From Patescibacteria group bacterium (GTDB lineage Bacteria > Patescibacteriota > Minisyncoccia > Phycocordibacterales > JACZSL01), in contig JADFRL010000003.1 in NCBI GenBank assembly GCA_022561335.1, forward strand, positions 1-53,003: 53,003 nucleotides of DNA, read 5' to 3'. Under the pieces are notes generated by a model, which saw only the letters and a program-made list of their open reading frames with translations, had not been told where the DNA came from and did not search any database. The translations under genes and the position numbers were made by a program. Shown here one piece after another: positions 3,467-50,694 of the stretch. How positions within the stretch are numbered: position 1 is the first letter of the stretch; the number at the start of each line of letters is the position of its first letter.

Positions 3467-3719
3467 CATTCTTCCCAAACACCCCTCGGTGGATGCTTTT
3501 TGACGATGAGGGCTTAACCTTTTTATCTGTTCCTCTTTTCCGGCCTCCCTTTTAGTCCAGAAGGTGAAGCAATCGGCAGGGTCGTCAATGGGACTCGAAA
3601 GTTCTTACCGCCTCGCCCGTCAGAGAGGCGAGGTTGTTTATCTTTTAAAACGGCTAGTGAGCATTCTTATGATAACTCAGTAGTTTGGGCAGGGAAAATC
3701 TCGTACAATAAATAGGGGC

Positions 3720-3741
3720 ACCTCGGGGCAAGCCCCGAGGT
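3720..3741. repeat. short hairpin
   Basis: ACCTCGGGGC-AA-GCCCCGAGGT perfect inverted repeat. Confidence 0.7.
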
Positions 3742-3766
3742 ATTAAACCTATATTAACTTCTCGGC

Positions 3767-3920
3767 CCCGCCTGCCAGTTGCCCGATGCTTATTATATCG
3801 TCCCATACAATATGTACAGAATGTTTCCCCTGCTTCCTTTGGCCCTATCAGCCGCTCTGGCATTGGCGGGCAGGTGGGAAATGCAAAAGTAAAACTTTTG
3901 CATTTCGCTCGCTCTGCGTC
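3767..3920. repeat. dispersed repeat element copy E1 (bounded module plus 12-bp hairpin plus conserved flank)
   Basis: CCCGCCTGCCA ... TGGCGGGCAGG (108 bp), then AAATGCAAAAGT-AAA-ACTTTTGCATTT and CGCTCGCTCTGCGTCGC. Confidence 0.65.
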
Positions 3921-3942
3921 GCTCATAAACAATTACACGGTC

Positions 3943-14240: not shown

Positions 14241-14347
14241 CCCGCCTGCCATCGCTTCAAAGCAATAAAGGTGAGCGTTGTTACTTTTGATAATGTTTTT
14301 TTGTGTTCATATGCTGCATTCAGTCGGCTCGGGCTTTGGCGGGCAGG
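14241..14347. repeat. dispersed repeat element copy E2
   Basis: Same end sequences as E1: CCCGCCTGCCA ... TGGCGGGCAGG, 107 bp. Confidence 0.6.
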
Positions 14348-14475
14348 TAGAGGATGTTTATATTTCCGTATCTGAGTTATAACTGATAAGAATTTTCGAC
14401 TTTGTTTGTGATTTTGTAGCTGTTGTAATTTCATGACGCTTTAATCTCTAGCAGGGTCCGTACTGACGCCATGGA

Positions 14476-39941: not shown

Positions 39942-42326
39942 ATGAAAAAAAATATAGATGATATGTTGCGTAACGTTAAATTAAAAAAATTAACCTCAGA
40001 AGAAAAAAGCTACCTCTGGTCTAATATTTCGAACCAATTGAAATTGAGCAGGCAAACTCAAAAGATTGATCAAAAAAATCGTCTATATTATTTTGCTGTA
40101 TTTGGTTATAAAAAAATAATTGCAGCTGCAACGCTTGTGGCCTTTTTAGTATTAGGGACTGCTACAGCCTGGGCATTTGATGATATACATCCGGGTGACT
40201 TTTTCTTTCCCGTTGATATTGCGGCAGAAAAAATACTTTTAATCCTTACCTTTGGCGATACCGAGGATGTTTTTCGACTGCGTTTTGCAGAGGAGCGACT
40301 TGATGAAGTACTGGCTCTTTTGGCGCTGGCTGAAAGTATTGAAATAGAGGGAACCTCAGATACATCAACTGATTCGTCAGATGGTACAGGGACAACGACT
40401 GACGACGATACGACCACAACCGTAACTGCTTCAAGTGATGATGAATCTGATGAAAGCTCTGACAACGGCACTACAACAGAAAATGGCACAAATGAAAATG
40501 GAGTGGATCTGATTGAGGAAGAATTTTTGAATAGCTTTGATTTTGATATAGATACGATTGAAGACGCACTTCTCTTTGCTCTCGCGCAATTGGAAGAATC
40601 AAAGGCGGTTTTTGCAGCAAACGGCAATGCGAACGGCGTTGTTGCCATTAATTCATTCATTGATCAGCTTAATGATTTAGCTCTCAATCATATAGATAAA
40701 CTTGACCGTGTTGCTGTTACGATCAAGGACGGAGGAAATGAAGATGTAAAAATAAAAATATCTATATCTTCACATGAACTCAAGAGAAAGTTTGAGTTTA
40801 CGGAAACAACCGACAGTGACGGCAGTACCACTCAAAAAGTTACCTTCCGTAACGAAGATACCAGCTCGAGCTTGAGATCTGATGAGGACGGAGGTTTTAA
40901 ATTTAGCTTTAACTTCAGAAATAAAGATAAAGATGACAAAAATGGTAAAGATGGAGATGATGGAGAGGATGGCAAAGGTGGAAAGAAAAATAAGAATAAA
41001 ATAAAAGTTTGTCACAAAGACAAAAAGACTCTCAGTATTTCTAAAAATGCCCGCTGGGCGCACCTCCTTCACGGTGATAGTCTGGGCCCGTGTGAGAAAG
41101 ATGACGATGACGACAATAACGATGACGATACGACGGCTCCGGAAATAACAAATGTAGTGGCTGATCCTGCCGTAACTACAGCAGAAGTGGCTTGGTTTAC
41201 AGATGAGGATGCAACAAGTCTAGTTTGGTACAGTACCACAAGTCCTGTTGTTCTAGACTTCCCTAACCCAGTGGAAGAAAGCGCCGTGCTGACGCAATAT
41301 CATGTTCTGGTACTCAACGATCTTGTCGCCAATACGATATACTACTATGTAGTTTCCTCAGAGGATGAATCTGGCAATAAGGCTACCTCTACCGAGCATT
41401 CGTTTACGACTGACCCCGAGCCAGATCCAGGCGATACCACTCCTCCGATCATATCAAACATCTCTACGTCGTCGGATATGATCTCTGCAGACGTCAGTTG
41501 GACCACTGATGAAAACGCAACGAGTAAGGTTTGGTTTAGTACTGAAAGCCCAGTTGTATTAGATACACCAACCGAGTTTGTCAGCAGCAGCGGCCTCGTG
41601 CAAAACCGAACCTTGACCTTAAACGGTCTTACAGCTAGCACCACCTACTTTTATATTGTTGAGTCGGAAGATGCCGAGGGAAACATTGCTACTTCATCTG
41701 AACAGACTTTTACGACTGACCCCGAGCTGGAGCTGGCAGACACCACACCGCCTATAATCTCAGCACTTAATGACAATGCCGCGACAACTGAGGCAGTCAT
41801 TACATGGATCACTGATGAAAATGCAGACAGCACGGTCTTCTACAGCATATCGTCCCCCGTTGATCCTGATACGGCGGACAGTGTAGAAAATACAAGCTTT
41901 GTCACGAGCCACTCGCTTGATTTGATAAATCTTACAGCAAGCACCACGTATTACTATCTTGTAGTCTCAAGTGATGAAAGTGGGAACACGTCTACTTCAA
42001 CCGAGAACAGTTTCACTATTACATCAGAACCTGAACCGGAAGATACTACCCCGCCCATGATCTCAACCATTACGTCCTTTGACATCGGGACGACAACTCT
42101 AGCAATCAGCTGGACAACCGATGAAATCGCAAACGGCAAGCTTTGGTATGGAGAAGGAGATCCTCTTATAGCAATGGTAAGTCATAGTGACTTTATAACC
42201 GCTCATGAACTTTTACTCGGCGGTCTAGTCGCAAGTACTACGTATCAATTCTTAATCGTCTCGACTGACGAATTTGGCAACACAGCGACATCAACTCAGC
42301 AAACAGTTACGACAATCAGCCAGTAG
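39942..42326 (+). CDS. DUF5667-like membrane-tethered surface protein with collagen-like linker and four FN3-like (purple acid phosphatase N-domain type) repeats; possible anti-sigma
   Basis: Short cytosolic N-terminus, TM, DIHPGDFFFPVDIAAEKILL...FAEERLDEVLALL; four DTTPPxI...WxTDExAxSxVxYS...LTASTTYYYxVxSxDExGN repeats. Confidence 0.75.
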   Translation: MKKNIDDMLRNVKLKKLTSEEKSYLWSNISNQLKLSRQTQKIDQKNRLYYFAVFGYKKIIAAATLVAFLVLGTATAWAFDDIHPGDFFFPVDIAAEKILLILTFGDTEDVFRLRFAEERLDEVLALLALAESIEIEGTSDTSTDSSDGTGTTTDDDTTTTVTASSDDESDESSDNGTTTENGTNENGVDLIEEEFLNSFDFDIDTIEDALLFALAQLEESKAVFAANGNANGVVAINSFIDQLNDLALNHIDKLDRVAVTIKDGGNEDVKIKISISSHELKRKFEFTETTDSDGSTTQKVTFRNEDTSSSLRSDEDGGFKFSFNFRNKDKDDKNGKDGDDGEDGKGGKKNKNKIKVCHKDKKTLSISKNARWAHLLHGDSLGPCEKDDDDDNNDDDTTAPEITNVVADPAVTTAEVAWFTDEDATSLVWYSTTSPVVLDFPNPVEESAVLTQYHVLVLNDLVANTIYYYVVSSEDESGNKATSTEHSFTTDPEPDPGDTTPPIISNISTSSDMISADVSWTTDENATSKVWFSTESPVVLDTPTEFVSSSGLVQNRTLTLNGLTASTTYFYIVESEDAEGNIATSSEQTFTTDPELELADTTPPIISALNDNAATTEAVITWITDENADSTVFYSISSPVDPDTADSVENTSFVTSHSLDLINLTASTTYYYLVVSSDESGNTSTSTENSFTITSEPEPEDTTPPMISTITSFDIGTTTLAISWTTDEIANGKLWYGEGDPLIAMVSHSDFITAHELLLGGLVASTTYQFLIVSTDEFGNTATSTQQTVTTISQ

Positions 42327-49557: not shown

Positions 49558-49605
49558 CGCTTAAATTGTACCTATTTAATGGGTTTTTCGCAAAAGACTA
49601 TTAGC

Positions 49606-49693
49606 GGCGCAGAGCGAGTGAAACGCCCAAGCTAAAGGCTTGGGCGTTTCCGAGCCGAGCATTCATGCGCAGGCAGGGAGCTGATAGGAGACG
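49606..49693. repeat. dispersed repeat element copy E3 (12-bp hairpin with conserved flank)
   Basis: GGCGCAGAGCGAGTG-AAACGCCCAAGC-TAAAG-GCTTGGGCGTTT-CC ... CTGATAGG. Confidence 0.65.
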
Positions 49694-49701
49694 AAATGCT
49701 T

Positions 49702-50694
49702 TTACTCCGAGAGTGAGAGGAGGCTGGCTTCTACAAGCTGCACTATATCGCTAAATCTTCCCTCTTGTGTAGAGCTGAGAACGACGGCGATCAAGGGTCT
49801 GTTGAGTCCGGCATTATAGGCAACTATAAGATTTCCCCCCGCCAAATCGGTAAATCCTGTTTTTGAGGCAATGAGTCCTGGAATGCTCCCAATAATTTTA
49901 TTGGTGTTAGTCGCCGTATGAGTAATGCCGGAGAGTGACGTAATGTCTAAAGTTTTATATACAGTGGCACTGACAAGTGTCGGGTGCTCTTTCAAAATAT
50001 ACTCCATAAGCAAAGCGACGTCTTTCACAGATCCATATCCTCCACTCATACGTGAGTTGGGGTCTAGCCCCGTTTCATTGATAAAATAGGTTTGACTAAG
50101 GTTTATGTTTGTTGATTTGGAGTTCATGGCTCGCACAAATGTAGCTTCTGGTGAGTCATCTGATTGCGGGGACATCTGCATACGAGCTGCTCCGGCAATA
50201 CTGGCAATTACATTAGCTCCGTCATTGGAAGAAACGACCAGAATAAAATCCAGCATATCAGAAAGATTCCATTTTTCATGAGCGAAAAGCCCACTGTCCC
50301 CCTCTTCCAGGAGAGAGTCCTCCTCGACTGTTATAATATATTCGTCTGGCAGTAATTCAGAGGCCACCAAAACTGTCATGAGCTTAGTCAGTGAGGCTAG
50401 AGGAAGCTGCGCTTCACTGTTGTATTCATACAGTGACTTTTGCTTATTGATATCCCAGACAATCGCCGCTCGAGCTTCTAGATTAAGATCGTCAAACGGA
50501 TTTTTTTTCAGGATAATAGGAGGATTTTCAGAATTTTTTGGTGGAGAGGGACGTGCGGGTGTAGTTGTCTCCTTAGTAAAGATTAATAGTGAGGTTACGA
50601 TGAGCCCCAGTATAGAGAAGAAGATTACAACTCTTATGTAGCTCAATTCTCCCCTGTCACGGCGCTTAAGTTGATCGTTCTGTGTTTTCTCCAT
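49702..50694 (-). CDS. dacA: D-alanyl-D-alanine carboxypeptidase (S11)
   Basis: LPLASLTKLMTVLVA (SxxK), SSNDGANVIAS (SxN), SKTGFTDLAGG (KTG). Confidence 0.92.
   Translation of the reverse strand: MEKTQNDQLKRRDRGELSYIRVVIFFSILGLIVTSLLIFTKETTTPARPSPPKNSENPPIILKKNPFDDLNLEARAAIVWDINKQKSLYEYNSEAQLPLASLTKLMTVLVASELLPDEYIITVEEDSLLEEGDSGLFAHEKWNLSDMLDFILVVSSNDGANVIASIAGAARMQMSPQSDDSPEATFVRAMNSKSTNINLSQTYFINETGLDPNSRMSGGYGSVKDVALLMEYILKEHPTLVSATVYKTLDITSLSGITHTATNTNKIIGSIPGLIASKTGFTDLAGGNLIVAYNAGLNRPLIAVVLSSTQEGRFSDIVQLVEASLLSLSE

Follow-up and report, generated by a model that had tools for sequence, protein, structure and literature searches.

Small dispersed hairpin elements widespread in Patescibacteria and their possible movement in trans as folded single-stranded DNA

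Two intergenic hairpins, E1 and E3, were found in a window of 53,003 nucleotides that makes up contig 27 of a 667-kb Patescibacteria genome (36 contigs). They are members of a widespread family of small dispersed hairpin elements, which is real and apparently undescribed: the open-access part of the literature, in which the search was made, contained nothing on the motif string or on Patescibacteria in combination with REP or MITE terms. E1 and E3 are best read as copies of a non-coding, non-autonomous element that an enzyme acting in trans would move, perhaps in the form of a folded single strand of DNA; a probability of roughly 0.55 is assigned to this reading. The evidence comes from the build of the copies, the covariation of their stems, their insertion sites and the replication strand on which they lie.

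Structure of the element

Full copies of the element are about 165 bp long, within a range of about 70–200 bases, have no coding content and are built of two hairpin domains side by side, of which domain 1 is the 5' one and domain 2 the 3' one. Domain 1 is composed of a 7-bp outer stem P1 (TATTAGC/GCTAATA), a conserved internal loop and a variable hairpin P2. The strands of the internal loop, GACGYAGAGCGAG and CGAGCCGAGGA (in fuller form 5' GACGYAGAGCGAGYG and 3' CCGAGCCGAGGA), fit tandem G.A pairs, in that GCGAG/CGAGC places tandem G.A mismatches between G-C pairs; RNAalifold independently pairs the identical bases, and the G.A cells are retained in 98 and 102 copies out of 111. In distant genomes (L235, L237) P2 is entirely swapped and the internal loop is kept. 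Domain 2 runs TATAGG...CCTATA and encloses one to three units of (T)AATACC followed by a GC hairpin. Matched-pair changes occur in its closing stem (TATAGTCC/GGACTATA, TATAAGAC/GTCTTATA and TATATGCC/GGCATATA), and a partner of 7/8 or better is present in 41% of copies vs. 16% in cross-copy comparison. RNAalifold applied to full-length copies recovered domain 1 well and aligned domain 2 poorly. Domain 2 often contains GAGCGAAGCGA (L139:1570–1650 and many full-length copies); GCGAAGC forms a DNA mini-hairpin of exceptional stability, and a role as single-stranded DNA would be in keeping with this.

The copy E1 lies on the minus strand at 3711–3927, has a SurA-like gene and a Na/Ca exchanger gene as neighbors, and is a long variant with a nested module (covariance-model match of 46.9 bits, E=6e-8). 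The 5' strand of its outer stem P1, TATGAGC (3921–3927), aligns with TATTAGC of the other copies and is followed by the conserved 5' internal-loop strand GACGCAGAGCGAGCG (3920–3906) and by P2 (3878–3906), a hairpin of 13 bp counting the foot G-C, with the arms AAATGCAAAAGT (3905–3894) and ACTTTTGCATTT (3890–3879) and the loop TTT. An inserted palindromic module, CACCTGCCCGCC...GGCAGGCGGG, occupies about 3767–3876; it is missing in most copies, and related modules stand free elsewhere in the genome. The 3' strand of P1, GTTAATA (3752–3758), is at the position equivalent to GCTAATA of the others, and domain 2 (3711–3753) consists of TATAGGTTTAATACC, the hairpin CCTCGGGGC/GCCCCGAGG and CCTATT. 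At an unrelated locus on another contig (C24:17060–16895) the long variant is duplicated, in a second copy that is 93% identical to E1 over 165 bp.

The copy E3 lies on the plus strand at 49599–49704 (covariance-model match at 49599–49690, 68 bits, E=3.6e-13), between genes for a glycosyltransferase of family 4 and a D-Ala-D-Ala carboxypeptidase of family S11. It comprises the 5' strand of P1, TATTAGC (49599–49605), the conserved 5' internal-loop strand GGCGCAGAGCGAGTG (49606–49620), a 12-bp P2 (49621–49649) with the arms AAACGCCCAAGC (49621–49632) and GCTTGGGCGTTT (49638–49649) and the loop TAAAG, the conserved 3' internal-loop strand CGAGCCGAG (49651–49659), an optional and degenerate GC-rich insert CCTGCCTGCGCAGGCAGG (49660–49679), recognized by alignment with copies on contigs C25, C7 and C19, and the 3' strand of P1, GCTGATA (49680–49686). 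The copy ends in an alternative 3' tail, GGAGACGAAATGCTTTTA (49687–49704; relatives have GAGACGAAGTGCTTTTA for comparison), which shares bases with the stop codon of the gene for the S11 peptidase (49702–50694).

Judged on sequence, E1 and E3 are homologous. Direct reading of both copies confirmed the sequences as first written and the four differences between the 12-bp P2 stems, every one of them compensated in the partner arm (T-A to C-G, A-T to C-G twice and again T-A to C-G). The pattern CGCAGAGCGAGYGAAA-N6..30-TTTC is present at exactly two places in the window and in none of 100 shuffles. The predicted extents needed revision: the hairpins and arms hold, the element begins 7 bases earlier on each side (TATGAGC at 3927–3921 and TATTAGC at 49599–49605), and E1 reaches about 3711 with a second domain beyond the span first given. 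CTGATAGG, which had been taken as a flank shared by the two copies, is not homologous between them; in E1 it is held within the inserted module, the true 3' strand being GTTAATA at 3758–3752, and in E3 it belongs to the outer stem, as that stem's 3' strand.

Optional palindromic modules occur within domain 1 of some copies, E1 and E3 among them, and are of the type CCTGCCTGCGCAGGCAGG or CCTGCCCGCC...GGCAGGCGGG. The latter constitutes a second dispersed palindrome family, found nested inside copies of the element (E1, 3767–3876) and free-standing at 14327–14348 in the window and on contigs C36 (34306), C14 (7809), C19 (18046) and C32 (12930). Repeats of another kind lie at 41181–42142 of the window, where the ORF of 794 codons at 39942–42326 contains four direct repeats of 306 bases and so encodes a protein of tandem domains.

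Distribution among Patescibacteria

The original prediction of a dispersed family is borne out, as copies far exceed the two in the window. Searches by BLAST and by a covariance model (R1) that was derived from 22 copies gave nine copies in the genome of the window at E≤0.001, plus truncated or module-swapped relatives. One truncated domain-1 copy in this genome (minus strand, C32:8903) is followed by an unrelated inverted repeat of about 130 bp (AATCCCGTTAGTAGTCACGGACAC...GTGTCCTACTACTAACGGGAT). An exact 25-base pattern was matched by 29 stretches in public genomes, the hosts being Yonath-, Vogel-, Lloyd-, Taylor- and Doudnabacteria and unnamed Patescibacteria. With R1 the element was detected in 86 of 297 genomes sampled from the order and in 27 of 380 genomes of a phylum-wide sample, several families outside the order included. 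Presence across genomes is patchy. Within one genus of Yonathbacteria, 14 of 16 genomes carry the element, with a maximum of 21 copies per genome. Tandem copies have been seen (L217, L105), and in one assembly of this genus (G205) an N-gap falls within tandem copies (L213:1628–1679), so that copy numbers from draft genomes are probably underestimates. Viral contigs (searched with the exact pattern), phages and plasmids gave no match to the element. Five copy-bearing or candidate loci had no match in Rfam at E up to 5, and an Rfam search of the window matched only a tRNA.

Covariation of the stems

Among 111 distinct copies, 95.8% of domain-1 cells are paired. Double-sided changes occur at 18 of the 19 domain-1 pairs (shuffled mean 11.1; reached in 0 of 500 shuffles), double-changed cells number 247 against a shuffled mean of 50, and the covariation score is 0.398, compared with 0.137 for shuffled and at most 0.087 for slid controls; these figures are to be read with the copies being related, the alignment being model-fitted and the seed pattern having fixed the 5' side of some copies. 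The covariation of the stems that had been predicted thus stands well above both controls. In the modelled strand G-T mismatches outnumber A-C mismatches by 64 to 35 in the larger sample, the first sample having been near parity (38:30), and the internal loop has an excess of G-T over A-C in the same direction. A tRNA control of this wobble test was uninformative because ARAGORN reports only valid pairs. The G-T excess hints, modestly, at the folding of one particular strand; an RNA would show a moderate excess too.

Paired changes of this kind may reflect selection on the fold, or they may come from mutation, when template switching copies one arm off the other (quasipalindrome correction). 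Such a process would find ideal substrates in perfect arms closed by short loops, P2 has a fair number of A-C mismatches (20 vs. 46 G-T), and template switching fits any mobile-element reading. However, the outer stem P1 covaries too (six of seven pairs double-sided), with some 50 bases usually separating its arms, as does the stem of domain 2, and mutation alone leaves the conserved internal loop between the stems unexplained. As the source of the paired changes, template switching is considered rather unlikely.

Mobility and insertion sites

Several observations indicate that the family of E1 and E3 is probably a mobile, non-autonomous element. Full-length copies paired between different species are 87–95% identical over 162–176 bp, with abrupt ends and unrelated flanks, and copies are intergenic. 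Three empty orthologous sites were found, in the dnaX, lepA and infC spacers. The tRNA-Gln/dnaX spacer, compared in 13 genomes, contains the element in one and is without it in 11, the remaining one being masked. In the lepA and infC spacers of one species the element lies inside or right after the T-tract of a terminator, and the same spacer of its sister species is without it. The 5' junction is T-rich, and base −1 is T in 90% and C in 10% of copies and never a purine. Targeting of terminators, hinted at by lepA and infC, was rejected: an upstream terminator-like hairpin was present at 19 of 81 copies, compared with rates of 18% in local control windows and 7% in shuffles. This enrichment is too small, and only the T-rich junction was retained. 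Empty sites lie in T-runs on both sides, which leaves the exact junction ambiguous and no target-site duplication demonstrable.

The tRNA-Gln/dnaX spacer has other features. In genomes of the Yonathbacteria genus (L190, L192, L194, L195, L197–L200) it carries a conserved box, CAGAATACACCAAAA...GGCAACG. In several genomes the 5' end of the tRNA is duplicated around a palindromic insert of 60–130 bp, a layout that would suit the integration of a small element at this place.

Movement of the copies by a DDE transposase (IS630/Tc1-like), as TA-bounded MITEs of the ERIC, Correia or RUP kind, is unlikely. The ends of domain 1 resemble those of such elements: 5'-TA-3' stands at both, and TATTAGC/GCTAATA forms an inverted repeat of 7 bp. 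Domain 2 is TA-bounded as well (TATAGG...CCTATA). The moving unit is, however, domain 1 plus domain 2; it runs from TATTAGC to CCTATA or CTTTTAT, no inverted repeat is formed by its two ends, and the inverted repeats bound domain 1 only. A target-site duplication cannot be demonstrated with the sites in T-runs, and a DDE transposase gives no reason for the replication-strand bias described below. Because the moving unit is without inverted-repeat ends, the element is not a classical MITE.

Orientation and replication strand

The genes next to the copies follow no rule of orientation (++ 21, -- 18, convergent 12 and divergent 7), which counts against a leader or an mRNA element. A cis-regulatory mRNA leader of the riboswitch type was rejected on these counts, as copies are not consistently in sense orientation upstream of a gene class. 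A fold selected in the transcript, either as an independent sRNA or as an element for mRNA stability or termination, is decidedly improbable. The multi-hairpin build, the tandem G.A-like internal loop, the compensatory stems and the 64:35 excess, read as G-U over A-C in one strand, are all in keeping with a structured RNA. Against it are the variable orientation to genes, an upstream composition that is not promoter-like, loci that are not conserved, the patchy presence and the lack of any Rfam match.

The copies have a preference for one replication strand. Of 73 copies compared in 20-kb windows, 50 (68%, p=0.002) have the modelled strand on the G-rich strand, a bias that rests on local GC skew and is lower than expected for a strict single-strand transposon. 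Where |skew| is at least 0.03 the count is 43 of 59 (p=0.0006), and a second batch repeated the bias (16 of 22, after 29 of 42). With neutral neighbors (convergent or divergent genes) the G-rich strand is occupied in 19 of 24 cases, and gene orientation therefore does not account for the bias. On parental DNA the template of the lagging strand is the G-rich one, and this is the strand that IS200/IS605-type elements prefer.

A route through single-stranded DNA is favored mainly because of this moderate strand bias, and it is proposed with a confidence clearly below even odds. An enzyme supplied in trans would recognize the folded single strand by the conserved internal loop plus any stable stem. 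The element would move through single-stranded DNA, preferentially where the modelled strand is the lagging-strand template, and its targets would be T-rich sites. Such movement would resemble that of an IS200/IS605-type (HUH/Y1) end. A wider proposal is more tentative and must be called doubtful: that the copies represent a phylum-wide class of minimal elements moving in trans as a folded strand via the lagging-strand template, recognized by the tandem-G.A internal loop, with a replaceable distal hairpin, and mobilized by an enzyme that has yet to be linked with them.

Search for a mobilizing enzyme

Y1 transposases are present in 182 of 297 genomes of the order. Their co-occurrence with the element is weak (61 of 86 genomes with it vs. 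121 of 211 without it; p=0.035, uncorrected for phylogeny), and no Y1 gene was detectable in genomes with 11–12 copies. Among the loci retrieved, no transposase-bearing copy with the same ends was seen. In one relative, a Y1 gene 150 bp from a copy (G180:C116) was set aside as a separate IS200-like element with its own end hairpins.

The search of the genome of the window for a Y1 transposase yielded one gene, amid different palindromes that are found nowhere else in that genome. It is a RAYT-like gene of the 250-aa class at about 931–1584 on contig C35 (L072:741–1903). The perfect palindrome GGCGGTCCGACCGCC lies inside its own frame (1107) and on both sides (900 and 1595), and GGACATCSGATGTCC occurs at 741, 1702 and 1888; neither of these 15-mers is present elsewhere in the genome. 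The gene is possibly a RAYT with private REPs inside its own coding sequence.

Movement of REP/REPIN sequences by a RAYT, the identity first suggested, would fit intergenic, palindromic, multi-copy elements and the single Y1 gene of the genome, but it is very improbable, as the hairpin foot has no GTAG/CGTC (nearly all copies have GCGAGYG/CGAGC at the foot of P2), the loop ACGTAG is 8–9 bases off the stem and often ACGCAG or ACATAG, the resident RAYT is ringed and interrupted by palindromes of its own, and genomes with 11–12 copies are without Y1 matches. The element is not a REP: the tag and the linkage to a RAYT were tested for and neither was found.

Comparison with known dispersed repeats

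The ERIC/IRU sequences of enterobacteria are likewise intergenic, imperfectly palindromic, about 70–200 bp long, present in many species and without coding capacity, and ERIC has a 7-bp terminal inverted repeat with TA ends (PMC2229807), here found in domain 1. Their sequence is unrelated, and the present element differs in its two domains, in lacking inverted-repeat ends on the whole unit and in its replication-strand bias. BOX elements of Streptococcus pneumoniae are modular, with outer parts closing a structure that holds variable inner modules (PMC3049150). They share with the present family the modular build, nested insertions and dispersal; their sequence is unrelated, in the present family the modules consist of variable hairpins and GC-rich palindromes, and its hosts come from many families of the phylum. 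REP/REPIN sequences are intergenic hairpins with compensatory stem variants (PMC3733652). Such variants, dimers and tandems and a possible single-strand recognition are common to both, whereas the present element has no GTAG/CGTC tag, a far longer conserved internal loop and no linked RAYT. The ends of IS200/IS605 and derived miniatures are similar in the subterminal hairpins at both ends, the T-rich 5' junction, the bias to the lagging-strand template (68% here) and the lack of an evident target duplication, which is not resolvable here in T-runs. They differ in that no transposase-bearing copy with these ends was found and that presence tracks Y1 genes weakly.

Significance

The streamlined genomes of Patescibacteria are not expected to hold many dispersed repeats. 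An element that is shared across the phylum, with a testable fold and a strand bias, marks recent movement and exchange of DNA in bacteria that are mostly uncultured. It also accounts for part of the structured intergenic DNA that could otherwise be mistaken for riboswitches or sRNAs. In addition, the model separates invariant recognition bases from a freely varying stem and is directly usable in the hunt for the enzyme.
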